Source: Azomonas macrocytogenes
GTDB lineage: Bacteria > Pseudomonadota > Gammaproteobacteria > Pseudomonadales > Pseudomonadaceae
DNA: 64,000 nt
Assembly: GCF_014191985.1 (NCBI RefSeq)
Contig: NZ_JACHXI010000001.1
Span: 186,001-250,000, forward strand
Direction of reading: 5' to 3'
The number at the start of each line of letters is the position of its first letter. Position 1 is the first letter of the stretch. Below the pieces are notes generated by a model. It saw only the letters and a list, made by a program, of their open reading frames with translations, had not been told where the DNA came from and made no database searches. Position numbers and translations under genes: made by a program. Positions 11,336-50,166 of this stretch are shown here, in pieces.

Positions 11336-13492
11336 TTACTTCTGCCCCACCGTCGCAACGATGGTGACCTGCTTGTTGTCCGGTATCTCCTGATAGGCCA
11401 GTACCTGAATATTGGGTACGACCACTCGGGCGAAGCGCGACATCATCATCCGGATCGGCCCGGCAACCAACAAAATCACTGGCTTGCCGAGCATTTCTTG
11501 ACGCTGTGCCGCCTCTACCAGGGAGCTTTGCAATTTCTCGGCCATCCCCGGCTCCAGCAGCATACCGTCGTCGGCACCCTGACCGGTTTTCTGCAAACTG
11601 CCCAGCAGGATCTGCTCCAGGCGCGGCTCCAGCGTAATGACCGGGATTTCCGACTCCAACCCGACAATGTTCTGGACGATGGCACGGGACAGCGCCACTC
11701 GCACGGCGCCGACCAGGACGACGGGATCCTGACTCTTGGCCCCCATTGCGGCGATGGCCTCGGCAATCGTACGAATATCGCGGACCGGCACCTGCTCCTG
11801 CAGCAACGCCTGCAACACCTTGAGCAACGTGGACAGGGAAACGCATCCGGGCACCAGCTCCTCGGCCAACCTGGGCGAGGCCTTGGCCAGCAACTGCATA
11901 AGCTGCTGGACCTCCTCGTGGCCAAGCAGTTCGTGGGCATGCTTGTGCAGGATCTGATTCAGATGGGTGGCGACTACGGTACTGGCATCCACGACGGTAT
12001 ATCCCAGGGATTGCGCCTGATCGCGCTGACTGGCCTCGATCCAGACCGCCTCCAGACCGAACGCCGGGTCTTGGGTGGCGATACCCTTCAACTGGCCGAA
12101 CACCTGGCCGGAGTTGATCGCCATTTCGCGATCCGGATAAATCTCGGCTTCGGCCACAGTCACGCCCATCAAGGTCAGGCGGTAGGCATTGGGCAGCAGG
12201 TCGAGATTGTCGCGAATATGGACCGACGGCATGAGAAAGCCCAGATCCTGCGACAGTTTCTTGCGTACCCCCTTGATTCGGGTCAGCAACTGCCCTCCCT
12301 GGTTACGATCGACCAGGGAAATCAACCGGTAACCAACCTCCAGACCAACCATATCGACCGGCATCACATCCTCCCAGCCCAGCTCACGAGTCTCCGCGGC
12401 GCGCTGCGCCGGCAGGCTTTCCTGCTGCTTGCGGACCTCCTGCTCGGCTTGCGCCCGGACCTGCTGCTGACGCTGCCAGATCCACCAGGCACCACCCGCG
12501 GCCATAGCGCCGAGCCCTATGAACGGAATATGCGGCATGCCCGGAACCACGCCCATGGCAATCAGGATCAAGGCGGCTACGGCCAGCGCCTTGGGCGAAT
12601 CGAACAACTGTCGATTGACCTGCTGACCCATATCCTCGGAACTGGTCACCCGGGTGACCAGAATCGCTGCCGCAGTGGACAGCAGCAGCGAAGGAATCTG
12701 CGCCACCAAACCGTCACCCATGGTCAGCAGCGCATAGATGCGGCCAGCCTCGGCGACCGGCATACCGTGCTGCAGGATGCCGATGGCCATGCCACCGATC
12801 AGGTTGATGAAGAGAATCAGCAGGCCAGCGATGGCATCGCCACGCACGAACTTGCTGGCACCATCCATGGAGCCGTAGAAATCGGCTTCGGCAGTCACCT
12901 CCGAACGGCGCTTCTTGGCCTCGGCCTGATCGATCAGACCGGCATTGAGATCGGCGTCGATGGCCATCTGCTTGCCTGGCATCGCATCGAGGGTAAACCG
13001 CGCGCTGACCTCGGAGATCCGCCCCGCGCCCTTGGTGACCACCACGAAATTGATGATCATCAGGATCGCGAACACCACCGCGCCGACCACATAGTTACCG
13101 CCGATCACCACCTCGCCGAAAGCCTGGATCACCTTACCGGCGGCATCGTGCCCATCCTGTCCATGGAGCAGTACCACTCGCGTGGACGCCACATTGAGCG
13201 CCAGACGCAGCAAGGTCGAAACCAGCAGGATGGTCGGAAACACCGCGAAATCCAGTGGCCGCATGGCATACACGCTGACCAGCAGGACGACGATCGACAA
13301 CGCAATATTGAAGGTAAAAAACACATCCAGAAGGAAAGCCGGTATCGGCAACGTCATCATTCCCAGCATGACCAGCACCAGCAGCGGCACACCAAGATTG
13401 CCACGTCCGAACCCGGCAATATTGTTGCGCACAGCGATCAGTTGCGAGCGATCCACATCTTCCCCCAAACCGAAACGGATTTTTGACGCCAT
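11336..13492 (-). CDS. flhA: Flagellar type III export gate protein FlhA
   Basis: Core component of the flagellar export gate. The 718-aa protein has about eight membrane helices in the first 340 residues, the family signature in the loop SARFTLDAMPGKQMAIDADL, and a large cytoplasmic domain (about 380-700) that binds chaperone-substrate complexes. The N-terminus MASKIRFGLGEDVDRSQLIA is normal for Pseudomonas. A sigma-54 type promoter at 13513-13528 precedes it, so flhA-flhF-fleN-fliA probably form one FleQ-dependent unit, as in P. aeruginosa. Confidence 0.97.
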   Translation of the reverse strand: MASKIRFGLGEDVDRSQLIAVRNNIAGFGRGNLGVPLLVLVMLGMMTLPIPAFLLDVFFTFNIALSIVVLLVSVYAMRPLDFAVFPTILLVSTLLRLALNVASTRVVLLHGQDGHDAAGKVIQAFGEVVIGGNYVVGAVVFAILMIINFVVVTKGAGRISEVSARFTLDAMPGKQMAIDADLNAGLIDQAEAKKRRSEVTAEADFYGSMDGASKFVRGDAIAGLLILFINLIGGMAIGILQHGMPVAEAGRIYALLTMGDGLVAQIPSLLLSTAAAILVTRVTSSEDMGQQVNRQLFDSPKALAVAALILIAMGVVPGMPHIPFIGLGAMAAGGAWWIWQRQQQVRAQAEQEVRKQQESLPAQRAAETRELGWEDVMPVDMVGLEVGYRLISLVDRNQGGQLLTRIKGVRKKLSQDLGFLMPSVHIRDNLDLLPNAYRLTLMGVTVAEAEIYPDREMAINSGQVFGQLKGIATQDPAFGLEAVWIEASQRDQAQSLGYTVVDASTVVATHLNQILHKHAHELLGHEEVQQLMQLLAKASPRLAEELVPGCVSLSTLLKVLQALLQEQVPVRDIRTIAEAIAAMGAKSQDPVVLVGAVRVALSRAIVQNIVGLESEIPVITLEPRLEQILLGSLQKTGQGADDGMLLEPGMAEKLQSSLVEAAQRQEMLGKPVILLVAGPIRMMMSRFARVVVPNIQVLAYQEIPDNKQVTIVATVGQK

Positions 13493-13512: not shown

Positions 13513-13528
13513 TGCAAGAAGGAGTCCA
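13513..13528 (-). promoter_or_regulatory. Sigma-54 type promoter for flhA-flhF-fleN-fliA
   Basis: On the minus strand the sequence TGGACTCCTTCTTGCA has the GG-N10-GC spacing of the -24/-12 sigma-54 box and lies about 20-35 bases before the flhA ATG. In P. aeruginosa flhA is a class II gene driven by RpoN and FleQ, which fits. Confidence 0.7.
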
Positions 13529-13568
13529 ACCTGTGAGCGGGATGAAAAGGCGGGAAATTTAGCTGAAG

Positions 13569-13592: not shown

Positions 13593-13617
13593 CTCCCATG
13601 AGCCAATCACCAGCCTT

Positions 13618-13688
13618 GTAGGGCGGGTGCAACCCGCCACTGGCATCCGGACCCAACAATATGGCATGGCGGGTTTCACCCGCCCTAC
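13618..13688. repeat. REPIN 1 (REP doublet), 71 bp
   Basis: Two REP sequences face each other. The left begins GTAGGGCGGGTGCAACCCGC and the right is its near-exact reverse complement ending CACCCGCCCTAC; the 22-bp arms differ at one base. Each arm is itself a hairpin (GGCGGGT-GCA-ACCCGCC) preceded by the GTAG tetranucleotide typical of Pseudomonas REPs. About 27 bp separate the arms. REPINs are normally spread by a RAYT transposase; none is in this window. Confidence 0.88.
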
Positions 13689-13805
13689 TGGCTTCCCCTT
13701 TACTCGTCCCGCTGCAAATCCGTCGGGATCGGCACGTCCCGTAGCGGATCGGGCCGGCGGCCTTTGCCGGCCTGGTATTGGCGCAGTTGATAGACGTAGG
13801 CCAGC
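13689..13805 (-). pseudogene. Duplicated 3' fragment of flhB, copy A (117 bp)
   Basis: This stretch repeats the last 117 bp of the flhB region (14003-14119), including the stop codon and the final 35 codons or so, with three base differences, all transitions. On the minus strand it would encode the FlhB tail with PIPTDLQRDE where the intact gene has PIPADLRRDE. It has no start codon of its own and lies between REPIN 1 and REPIN 2, so it is a gene fragment created by tandem duplication. Confidence 0.9.
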
Positions 13806-13808
13806 CTT

Positions 13809-13879
13809 GTAGGGCGGGTGCAACCCGCCACTGACATCCGGACCCAACAATATGGCATGGCGGGTTTCACCCGCCCTAC
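13809..13879. repeat. REPIN 2 (REP doublet), 71 bp
   Basis: Second copy of the REP doublet, with the same length and arms as REPIN 1. It starts exactly 191 bp after REPIN 1. The only visible change in the inter-arm segment is CTGACATCC where REPIN 1 has CTGGCATCC. Confidence 0.88.
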
Positions 13880-13930
13880 TGGTTTCCCCTTTACTCGTCC
13901 CGCCGTAAATCCGCCGTGATTGGCAAGTCT
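13880..13930 (-). pseudogene. Duplicated 3' fragment of flhB, copy B (51 bp, truncated)
   Basis: A shorter and more diverged copy of the flhB end, matching 14003-14053 with about six base differences, then joining REPIN 3 at a shared GTAG. It carries the stop codon and roughly the last 12 codons. It is more diverged than copy A, which suggests a separate and possibly older event. Confidence 0.82.
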
Positions 13931-13931
13931 T

Positions 13932-14002
13932 GTAGGGCGGGTGCAACCCGCCACTGGCATCCAGACCTAACAATATGGCATGGCGGGTTTCACCCGCCCT
14001 AT
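13932..14002. repeat. REPIN 3 (REP doublet), 71 bp, adjacent to the flhB stop
   Basis: Third copy of the REP doublet, starting 123 bp after REPIN 2. The last base of the right arm is changed (CCCTAT instead of CCCTAC). It begins 11 bp past the flhB stop codon on the minus strand, so it lies in the flhB 3' untranslated region and may be the founder insertion. Confidence 0.87.
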
Positions 14003-14013
14003 TGGCTTCCCCT

Positions 14014-15150
14014 TTACTCGTCCCGCCGCAAATCCGCCGGGATCGGCACGTCCCGTAGCGGATCGGGCCGGCGGCCTTTGCCGGCCTGGTATTGGCGCAG
14101 TTGGTAGACGTAGGCCAGCACCTGGGCCACCGCCAGATAGAGCCCGGCGGGGATTTCCCGGTCGATTTCGGTGGAGTGGTAGACGGCTCGGGCCAGGGCT
14201 GGCGATTCCATCACCATCACCTGGTGTTCCTGGGCTATTTCACGAATCTTCAGCGCCATGAAGTCGCCGCCCTTGGCCACCAGTAGCGGCGCACTGGCCT
14301 TGGTCGCGTCGTATTTGAGCGCCACGGCGAAGTGGGTCGGGTTGGTGATGACCACATCGGCTTCCGGGACGGCCTGCATCATGCGCCGCTGGAGCATTTC
14401 GCGCTGCAGTTGGCGAATGCGCGACTTGACCTCGGGCTTGCCGTCGGAATCCTTGTATTCGTCACGCACTTCCTGCTTGGTCATCATCAGCTTCTGCCGG
14501 TTGTCCCAGAGCTGGTACGGCACGTCCACGGCCGCGATCAGGATCAGGCCGCACGCCATCCACAAAGAACTCCAGCCGACAATCTCCATGCTGTGCAGGA
14601 TGGCCGTTTCAAGCGGTTGCTTGGCAATCGAGATCAGGTCTTCCGCATAAGCGCAAAGCACGGCCAGCGCGACCAGCAAGACCACCAGAAACTTCGCCAG
14701 TGCCTTGAGCAGCTCCACCAGCGATTTGCTCGAAAACATCCGTTGCAGGCCGGACACAGGATTCAGGCGGCTGAAATTCAGTGCCAGCGCCTGACCGGAA
14801 AACAGCCAGCCGCCCAGGGAAACTGCGCCGGCAATCGAAGCAACCGATAGCGCGAGCAGAAACGGTAGCAGTGCCTTGAGCACGAGCAGGCCGCTGGCAA
14901 CCAGCAGCATGCTCATGGCGCTCTCGTCCAGGAGGGTTGCGCGAGGCAGGTCGAAGCTGCCCTGCATCACGGCTATCAGGCTCTGACCGATACTGCCACC
15001 AGAGATCAAAAGCCCGCCGATTCCGCCCAGCGTGACGACTACGGTACCCAACTCGCGCGAGCGCGCCAGTTGGCCTTTCTCCTTTGCCTCCCGGCGCCGT
15101 TTCTCGGTGGGTTCCTCGCTTTTGTCAGCGCCGTTTTCATTCTCGGCCAT
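14014..15150 (-). CDS. flhB: Flagellar export switch protein FlhB
   Basis: FlhB switches export from rod/hook to filament substrates by self-cleavage. The 378-aa protein has four membrane helices (about 35-205) and a cytoplasmic domain with the autocleavage site in VVITNPTHFAVALKYD. The tail is basic and acidic, ending RRDE. It is the last gene of fliLMNOPQR-flhB and lies 12 bp after fliR. Its 3' end has been copied twice downstream together with REPIN elements; the gene itself is intact. Confidence 0.97.
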   Translation of the reverse strand: MAENENGADKSEEPTEKRRREAKEKGQLARSRELGTVVVTLGGIGGLLISGGSIGQSLIAVMQGSFDLPRATLLDESAMSMLLVASGLLVLKALLPFLLALSVASIAGAVSLGGWLFSGQALALNFSRLNPVSGLQRMFSSKSLVELLKALAKFLVVLLVALAVLCAYAEDLISIAKQPLETAILHSMEIVGWSSLWMACGLILIAAVDVPYQLWDNRQKLMMTKQEVRDEYKDSDGKPEVKSRIRQLQREMLQRRMMQAVPEADVVITNPTHFAVALKYDATKASAPLLVAKGGDFMALKIREIAQEHQVMVMESPALARAVYHSTEIDREIPAGLYLAVAQVLAYVYQLRQYQAGKGRRPDPLRDVPIPADLRRDE

Positions 15151-47723: not shown

Positions 47724-48734
47724 CTAAAGCAAAGGTGCCAACCTGGCACCCAATCGTTGCGGCAAGTCCTGCTCTACATCCAGCACCGCACGTCGAATCG
47801 CTGCACTGAAGGCTTTCTGTCCTGCATTGCCATGGCTTTTTACCACCACACCCTGCAAGCCAAGAAAGCTGGCACCATTGTATTGCTCAGGCATCAACTC
47901 GCGACGCAACTGACGCAAAACCGGATAAGCCAGGACACCAATTACGCGCAAGTACCAACGGCGATGAAATAAAGCCTCGATCTTACTACCTATCGTACGC
48001 GCCAGTTCTTCGCTGGACTTGAGCAGGATATTGCCAACAAAACCATCACAAACGGCAACATCAGCTTCACCTCGAAATAAACCATCGCCTTCGATGAAGC
48101 CTTGGTAGTTCAAATCATCGGCCAGCAGCAATTTGTCGGCAGCCAACCTGACTTGCTGATTACCTTTTATATCTTCGGCTCCCACATTCAGCAGGGCAAT
48201 TCTAGGTTGCTCGATACCCTGAAGCTGGGCTGCCATGGATCCCATCACTGCAAATTGATAAAGATGCTCTGCCGTGCAATCAACATTCGCACCAAGATCC
48301 AGTAACAGAAAAGGCCTGCGGCCGGCTGGAATGGTTGCACACATTGCAGGGCGGTCGACTCCGGGCAGTGTTTTCAGAACATGTCTGGAGATCGCCATCA
48401 AAGCTCCGGAATTTCCTGCACTCACACAAGCCTGAGCCTGTCCATCACGCACCATCTCCAACGCCACATGCAACGAAGATCGCGGTTTGCCACGCAAAAC
48501 CAAGGTAGGACGTTCGTCCATACCAACCACATCCTCAGCTTCGACGATGGCTAATCGCGAATGATCAATCTCTTTTTTATACGCAGAGACATGCTGCTCA
48601 AGCACACAAGATTGACCGACCAAAAGAAGTCGCAACGAAGGAAATGCGGAAAGACAATCGAGACTAGCCGGAACGATACAACGGGGACCGAAATCCCCGC
48701 CCATCGCATCGACGGCAATGACCGCGGCGGACAA
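47724..48734 (-). CDS. plsX: Phosphate acyltransferase PlsX
   Basis: Makes acyl-phosphate for phospholipid synthesis. The 336-aa protein starts (TTG, 48734) [20 protein letters not shown], the family hallmark, with [11 protein letters not shown] and [13 protein letters not shown] further on. The TTG start lies 2 bp after the rpmF stop and no ATG fits the family N-terminus, so coupling to rpmF is likely. Confidence 0.96.
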
Positions 48735-48736
48735 GA

Positions 48737-48919
48737 TTACTCGTCGGAACCCTTGTCGATGACCTTGCGTCCCCGATAGAAACCATCCGGAGATACATGA
48801 TGGCGCAGGTGTACCTCACCTGTGCTTTTCTCTACAGAAAGGGCATTCGACTCCAGAGCATCATGAGAACGACGCATATCACGAGCGGAACGGGATTTTT
48901 TGTTCTGCTGAACAGCCAT
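48737..48919 (-). CDS. rpmF: 50S ribosomal protein L32
   Basis: A 60-aa basic ribosomal protein, [20 protein letters not shown], typical of L32 without the zinc-binding cysteines seen in some forms. It sits in the conserved yceD-rpmF-plsX-fab order, coupling ribosome and membrane synthesis. Confidence 0.98.
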
Positions 48920-48930
48920 TGAATCAACTC

Positions 48931-49467
48931 CTAAACGTTTGGGTCACGCTTTAACTGCGCCAGGACGCTAAAAGGATTGGAACGATCAACTTCGTCCCGA
49001 TCCATAGCAGATTCGCCGGAACCGGGCGCCTGGCAATCATTGGGGTCGTGGAGTGGAACAATGGGCAGAGCGAGCAATAACTCATCCTCTACCAGAGCCA
49101 ACAGATCCAGCGGATCCTCTCCCACTTCCAGCACATCATATCCCTTAGGCAGATGCTGGGAGTTTGCACCCTCGTTCACAACCGCATAATCACATTCACT
49201 GTGAATAGGCAAACGGACCAACTCCAGGCATCGCTGGCAGACCATGGAAACTTCGACATCGAGTTCACTATGGAATACCACTGTTCGCTGTTCATCACGT
49301 TTGAAAACGAACCTGGCGCGCACCATGGCAGATGCAGTGCTTTCGTCGCTCACAAGGGATGCGGACAGCCGCTCAAATTTTGTCAAGCCAAGCTCACCTT
49401 CCAAGATGGCAGCCCGATCAGCTAATTTGCGCGGATCAATGTGCGAGGGTATCGGTCCATTCAACAT
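48931..49467 (-). CDS. yceD: YceD/DUF177 family protein
   Basis: A 178-aa protein with the DUF177 signature [20 protein letters not shown] and [20 protein letters not shown]. Homologues act in 23S rRNA metabolism in bacteria and plastids; the exact role here is unknown. It opens the fatty-acid operon with a near-consensus promoter just upstream. Confidence 0.93.
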
Positions 49468-49476
49468 AAGCGCGGC

Positions 49477-49505
49477 ATTCTATTTAGCCACCGAAAGGCT
49501 GTCAA
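49477..49505 (-). promoter_or_regulatory. Near-consensus sigma-70 promoter for yceD-rpmF-plsX-fabDG
   Basis: TTGACA and TAGAAT are exactly 17 bp apart on the minus strand and end 10 bp before the yceD ATG, which would leave a very short leader. Confidence 0.85.
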
Positions 49506-49587
49506 AGATAATTCAAGACTATCGCCCTGTTGGTAGATAAAGTCAAAGCAACCCATCACGCTGTTGAATTCGTTAAATGGAAGAACA

Positions 49588-50166
49588 ATGCGTCAACTGC
49601 TATTAGCATCCAGCTCTCCCTATCGCCGGGAATTGCTATCCCGCCTGCATCTACCATTCTGTTGGAAAGCTCCGGATATCGACGAATCACCCATCGCCAG
49701 TGAGCCAGCCGCAGCCTTGGTTTGCCGCCTTGCCCGGAGCAAGGCCGAGCGCCTTGCCCAAACCTACCATGACCACCTGATTATCGGCTCCGATCAAGTT
49801 GCCACACTGAACAACCGGATTCTTGGCAAGCCACATGACTTCGAACAAGCCAGGGAACAGCTTCTCGAAGCGAGCGGAACAAGCGTTCATTTTTTGACTG
49901 GCTTAGCCTTGCTAGATAGTAAAAGCGGTCGATTACAATTGGATTGCGTGCAATTTACCGTGCATTTCCGTCGTTTGAGCAACGAGCAGATCGAACGCTA
50001 CCTGCATGCAGAACAGCCTTATGACTGTGCAGGTAGCTTCAAGGCAGAAGGATTGGGAATCAGTCTTTTTCGAGCGACTGAAGGGGAAGACCCCACCAGC
50101 CTGATCGGACTACCCTTGATAAGACTGGTGGAAATGCTGGCACAGGAAGGCCTGGAAATACCTTGA
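49588..50166 (+). CDS. maf: Maf-family nucleotide pyrophosphatase (YceF-like)
   Basis: A 192-aa house-cleaning enzyme that hydrolyses modified nucleoside triphosphates such as m7GTP. Motifs LASSSPYRRELLSRLHLPF, HLIIGSDQVATLN and YDCAGSFKAEGLG are present. The ATG at 49588 has GGAAG upstream; an in-frame TTG eight codons earlier is less likely. It is transcribed away from yceD and toward sppA. Confidence 0.95.
   Translation: MRQLLLASSSPYRRELLSRLHLPFCWKAPDIDESPIASEPAAALVCRLARSKAERLAQTYHDHLIIGSDQVATLNNRILGKPHDFEQAREQLLEASGTSVHFLTGLALLDSKSGRLQLDCVQFTVHFRRLSNEQIERYLHAEQPYDCAGSFKAEGLGISLFRATEGEDPTSLIGLPLIRLVEMLAQEGLEIP

Follow-up and report, generated by a model that had tools for sequence, protein, structure and literature searches.

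How does the end of a conserved flagellar gene come to be repeated between copies of a palindromic repeat? The question is raised by the gap between the flagellar genes flhB and flhA of Azomonas macrocytogenes. We analyzed this gap within a window of 64,000 nucleotides (positions 186,001 to 250,000 of the forward strand of contig NZ_JACHXI010000001.1, assembly GCF_014191985.1; the genome is labelled G000). An earlier note on the window, made from its letters alone, had reported that three 71-bp doublets of repetitive extragenic palindromes (REPs) alternate there with copies of the flhB 3' end. We confirmed this alternation: three inverted doublets of about 71 bp (at 13618, 13809, and 13932) are interspersed with two flhB 3'-end copies, and the coordinates given in the note were right to within a few bases. 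Very probably, a REP doublet forming a hairpin (REPIN) inserted past the flhB stop codon, and the REPIN and the gene end were then duplicated in tandem in place.

The two genes are both on the minus strand and are separated by 521 bp. Moving outward from the flhB stop, 11 bp are followed by REPIN 3, tail copy 2, REPIN 2, and tail copy 1; then, after REPIN 1 and roughly 90 bp of other sequence, come a match to a sigma-54-type promoter and flhA. The features, by position in the window, are as follows.

11336..13492, minus strand: flhA, intact, above the curated FlhA cut-off
13513..13529, minus strand: motif match to a sigma-54 (RpoN) type promoter, TTGGACTCCTTCTTGCA, before flhA
13610..13617, plus strand: CCAGCCTT, flank of REPIN 1, recurring at 13801-13808
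13618..13688, no strand assigned: REPIN 1, the outermost (predicted RNA hairpin, z -5.7)
13689..13805, minus strand: tail copy 1, 117 bp, 97% identical to its parent by alignment
13801..13805, plus strand: duplication junction CCAGC, with partners at 13610-13614 and 14115-14119
13809..13879, no strand assigned: REPIN 2 (predicted RNA hairpin, z -5.6)
13880..13927, minus strand: tail copy 2, about 45 to 48 bp, 87% identical to its parent by alignment, about 35 bp of it coding
13932..14002, no strand assigned: REPIN 3, 11 bp past the flhB stop (predicted RNA hairpin, -43.8 kcal/mol, z -4.5)
14003..14119, minus strand: parent of tail copy 1 by alignment, comprising the final 106 bp of flhB and the 11 bp that follow its stop
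14014..15150, minus strand: intact flhB, from which the tail copies derive (395.8 bits to NCBIfam TIGR00328, exceeding the curated cut-off)

Junctions of the array and its proposed origin

Tail copy 1 aligned to positions 14003-14119 over 117 bp, made up of 106 bp of flhB coding sequence and the 11 bp after the stop, with a local alignment score of 197 compared with at most 26 in 500 shuffles. Tail copy 2 scored 73, compared with at most 22 in shuffles, and its homology starts at 13880 and is firm for about 45 to 48 bp. Thus, the size of 117 bp claimed for the first copy stood, whereas that of 51 bp claimed for the second was slightly too long. The 191-bp unit described as bounded by CCAGC proved exact: it spans 13610-13800, and CCAGC is found exactly at 13610, 13801, and 14115. 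At least 5 shared bases were found in 0.7% of trials with random pairs of breakpoints in the region. Together with the alignment, this supports the claim that the REPIN and the gene tail were duplicated in tandem through 5-bp microhomology.

One REPIN-to-flhB junction, in which the REPIN is followed by about TGGCTTCCCCT and then the stop codon, is common to all three units, which suggests that REPIN insertion preceded duplication. The reverse order, in which REPINs inserted independently into already existing duplications of the flhB tail, is disfavored. REPINs do occupy this gap in other genera: one of the same class is found in the genome G017, and other palindromic repeats are found in G029 and G013 (L038 and L043). 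However, the identity of the junction in three units, a near-identical 27-bp spacer present in every unit and nowhere else in the genome, and the lack of tail copies in the other sampled genomes of the family make independent insertions extremely improbable.

The array has the form of a tandem REP cluster or bacterial interspersed mosaic element (BIME). It consists of three units in the same orientation, 92 to 96% identical over their shared stretches, and each repeat combines REPs with adjacent non-REP DNA, here the flhB tail copies. Unit 2 is 68 bp shorter than unit 1. The units differ at 12 scattered sites (three in unit 1, five in unit 2, and four in unit 3), none of them common to two units, making a duplicate introduced by assembly unlikely. 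When the majority state is taken as ancestral, all 12 changes replace a G or C with an A or T. Within the flhB part, the tail copies carry 3 and 4 changes and the parental end in unit 3 carries none. Judged from these substitutions, the pattern is consistent with a star-like history of neutral copies beside a constrained parent gene; the copies look old, near-simultaneous, and neutral.

The array could have arisen as follows. A REPIN, composed of two inverted REPs of the GTAG class, would have been mobilized in trans by a REP-associated tyrosine transposase (RAYT), either this genome's own or an ancestor's, and would have inserted 11 bp past the flhB stop. A segment that begins just beyond the REPIN foot and extends into the final 106 or so coding base pairs of flhB would then have been duplicated in tandem, using the 5-bp homology CCAGC, by slippage of replication at the hairpin or by unequal sister exchange there. 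The third unit would stem from a second event, either a duplication with a nearer breakpoint in flhB or an amplification after which 68 bp were deleted. The tail copies would since have been inert and decaying, with flhB intact. No flhB tail copy was found away from the array, which argues that the gene tail was co-duplicated in place and was not the cargo of transposition. The earlier suggestion that coding sequence travelled with a mobile repeat is thus borne out for co-duplication but not for transport.

The duplication is most simply explained by slippage or unequal exchange at short homology. Alternatively, the duplications might be products of the transposase and not of host slippage: RAYT would nick single-stranded DNA beside a REP, at a CT near GTAG, and the freed end would prime copying or join the flhB tail. 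Both breakpoints on the REPIN side lie no more than 8 bp from a REP foot, and the AGCCTT flank includes CT, the dinucleotide near the foot at which TnpA-REP enzymes are reported to cut (PMC8266576). Further, one reading of the second junction joins a GTAG in flhB (14058-14061) to the GTAG of a REP in register, and neighboring rayt 3' ends can, as Nunvar et al. (PMC2817692) have argued, be captured by the process from which BIMEs arise. However, the remaining breakpoints are inside flhB and away from REPs, a 5-bp homology of an ordinary kind forms the first junction, and the flank of REPIN 3, AGTCTT, is nearer to the copied REP flank (1/6 mismatch) than to flhB (3/6). We consider amplification catalyzed by RAYT unlikely. 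A role for RAYT in the starting event is possible, with the REPIN-side breakpoints so near the foot, though nothing here requires it.

Several results weigh against insertion of a REPIN followed by tandem duplication. At the breakpoint of the second junction there is no clear homology, or a 4-bp GTAG if 3 substitutions in 6 bases are allowed. Because every change is private to one unit, the order of the duplications cannot be read from them. The full 71-bp unit occurs three times in the genome, each time in this array, and transposition of that exact element has to be deduced from its ends; a genome-wide search, proposed in the earlier note, returned the whole unit from the array alone, although its 21- to 31-bp ends recur. 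The absence of further copies, which the note had named as grounds for refutation, thus applies to the whole unit but not to the REP. Finally, no relative was found that carries one REPIN of this kind at this locus and lacks the tail copies.

Repeat doublets and a cognate transposase

The doublets of all three units have the makeup of a REPIN: a pair of REPs in inverted orientation, separated by a short spacer. Their arms are 21 to 22 bp (GTAGGGCGGGTGCAACCCGCC), inverted and 95% complementary, with a 27-nucleotide spacer, and each REP has a GTAG foot and a palindrome (GTAGGGCGGGTGCAACCCGCC). Doublets 2 and 3 are 99% and 97% identical to the first; in REPIN 3, the last base of the GTAG foot on the flhB side is mutated, giving CTAT where the others have CTAC. 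Strong RNA hairpins are predicted from the doublets (z about -4.5 to -6.5), and an Rfam search returned chance matches only. REPINs are also expected to have dispersed copies of the whole doublet, but in this genome only the arms recur elsewhere. With the full doublet confined to the array, it is at best an atypical REPIN by copy number.

The genome contains a cognate RAYT flanked by the same REPs. The earlier note had proposed a search for such a gene, and an intact one of 207 codons was found on contig C18 (G000:C18:48920-49540), within a REP array. Its product matches NF047646 with 190 bits (cut-off, 80) and the solved TnpA-REP structure 4ER8 with E=2.6e-51, and the HLH motif and the tyrosine region are aligned and kept. 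The REP arms of the flhB array match the REPs flanking this gene exactly over 21 to 31 bp, and a REP doublet of RAYT type does lie just beyond the flhB stop, where the note had placed a REPIN. Allowing at most 1 mismatch, the genome holds 21 copies of the arm: 6 in the flhB array, 13 in the C18 array, and 2 singles. At the same threshold, 14 relatives chosen for many matches carry 41 to 374 arms per genome, which marks G000 as a low-copy host for this REP class. The outer flank AGCCTT is common to the flhB array, some REPs of the C18 array, and a single REP at G000:C1:253287. A second RAYT (C12:107311) is 53% identical to the first, with no relation to these REPs shown, and a transposase-like frame (C24:16724-16918) matches the Y1_Tnp domain and is absent among the RAYT-protein matches listed. 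Two copies of a 63-bp degenerate REP doublet with shared flanks lie near contig ends (G000:C2:235-297 and G000:C28:1559-1621), possibly inside a larger repeat.

The array around the RAYT gene (G000:C18, about 48303-50065; L028:1304-3066) is built of 184- to 188-bp REP units. It contains six copies of a terminator-like hairpin (ATACCCCGCCCCGTGCGGGGT) and adjoins a gene for a PilA-like pilin; in Stutzerimonas nosocomialis, one such hairpin directly follows the pilin stop. The G000 pilin gene has its TAG stop within the GTAG of the first REP. Homologs of the neighbors of this RAYT lie near RAYTs in other species: those from the pilin side in Azotobacter chroococcum, those from the opposite side in S. 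stutzeri, and those from both sides in S. nosocomialis. The location therefore looks old. Pilin conservation within the genus was too weak to use.

Relatives and known repeat clusters

The collection holds four genomes of the genus (G000 to G003). The three genus mates of G000 have neither a REPIN nor tail copies between flhB and flhA; the gap is 159 bp in G002 and 52 bp in G001, and in G003 (L031) it contains a superoxide-dismutase-like gene, named by eye. Several relatives have a sodC-like gene between flhB and flhA; it is absent from the gap in G000, G001, and G002. In G017, from another genus, a single REPIN of the same class stands exactly at the flhB stop with no tail copy, and its different spacer indicates that it is probably an independent insertion. 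The flhB TAG stop in G017 (L037) is supplied by the GTAG foot of the REPIN. The comparison with relatives proposed in the earlier note thus yielded congeners free of both REPIN and copies and one different REPIN, but not the one-REPIN ancestor that it had envisaged. Twenty more flhB-flhA gaps, mostly from the neighboring genera g14 and g15, contained no REPIN of this class and no tail copy. In a search with the FlhB C-terminus, 131 of 138 family genomes gave a match, and among the matches listed an adjacent partial flhB copy was found in G000 alone.

This distribution also bears on whether the array is kept for a function. A hairpin 11 nucleotides past the flhB stop could tune translation or mRNA decay, or the tail copies could encode a peptide from the FlhB C terminus. 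The predicted RNA hairpins are strong, the hairpin lies in the range (within 15 nucleotides of the stop) in which REPs reportedly reduce translation in Escherichia coli (as cited in PMC12306157), and an open reading frame of 86 codons (13700-13960, minus strand) ends in about 34 FlhB-like residues. However, that frame starts in REP DNA, tail copy 1 shows no sign of constraint in its substitutions (an amino acid is changed by 2 of the 3), the genus mates have nothing of the array, and many different sequences follow flhB in relatives. A function is therefore quite unlikely. The probable sigma-54-type promoter of flhA is undisturbed by the array; its motif has a single match in the window, where 0.68 would be expected by chance, and similar motifs are present in the flhB-flhA gap of relatives.

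Co-amplification of flanking DNA with REPs is not peculiar to flhB, as the hairpins of the RAYT array and a locus in G314 show. In the latter (L220:1245-1498), a REPIN pair surrounds a degenerate copy, about 68 bp long, of the 3' end of an upstream frame (score 39, compared with a best of 27 in 500 shuffles), whose product is histone-deacetylase-like by eye. In contrast, tandem REPIN arrays read by eye in G136, G191, G199, G304, and G061 have spacers with other palindromic repeats and not gene ends. In four genomes (L193, L216, L217, and L218), apparently at the same intergenic site, there are tandem arrays made up of REPINs of this class in alternation with palindromic repeats of other kinds.

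Ordered tandem REPIN clusters that include flanking DNA are known from Pseudomonas fluorescens SBW25 (Bertels and Rainey 2011, PMC3116915), where some adjoin RAYT genes (PMC3116915). Here, unlike in those clusters, the flank consists of coding sequence from the 3' end of a conserved flagellar gene, and REPs of the class are very few in the genome. Four BIMEs are described that incorporate 3' ends of the rayt gene itself (Nunvar et al. 2010, PMC2817692). As in these, a gene 3' end and the stretch from stop to REP have become the inter-REP segment, but the gene is flhB, which is unrelated to transposition. Passages of PMC3733652 describe clusters of GTAG REPs with segments of flanking DNA, as well as TAG stops derived from GTAG; no description of the junction or the parent gene of the flank was found in those passages. 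No paper connecting REP elements with tandem duplication and microhomology was found in a literature search. The flhB array is a clear case of a known kind of repeat cluster and not a new kind of element.

A broader idea is that nicking by RAYT at the REP foot triggers tandem copying of adjacent host DNA, making REPINs engines that copy neighboring gene ends and terminators. If true, this would cover both the flhB end described here and the terminator-like hairpin on the pilin side of the RAYT locus; we consider this idea unlikely. What the array does bear on is how REP arrays grow, as it offers two steps, one readable junction, a constrained and known parent, and a genome that also encodes a cognate transposase. 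The array shows that coding DNA beside a REPIN, beyond rayt genes, can enter the repeat unit.
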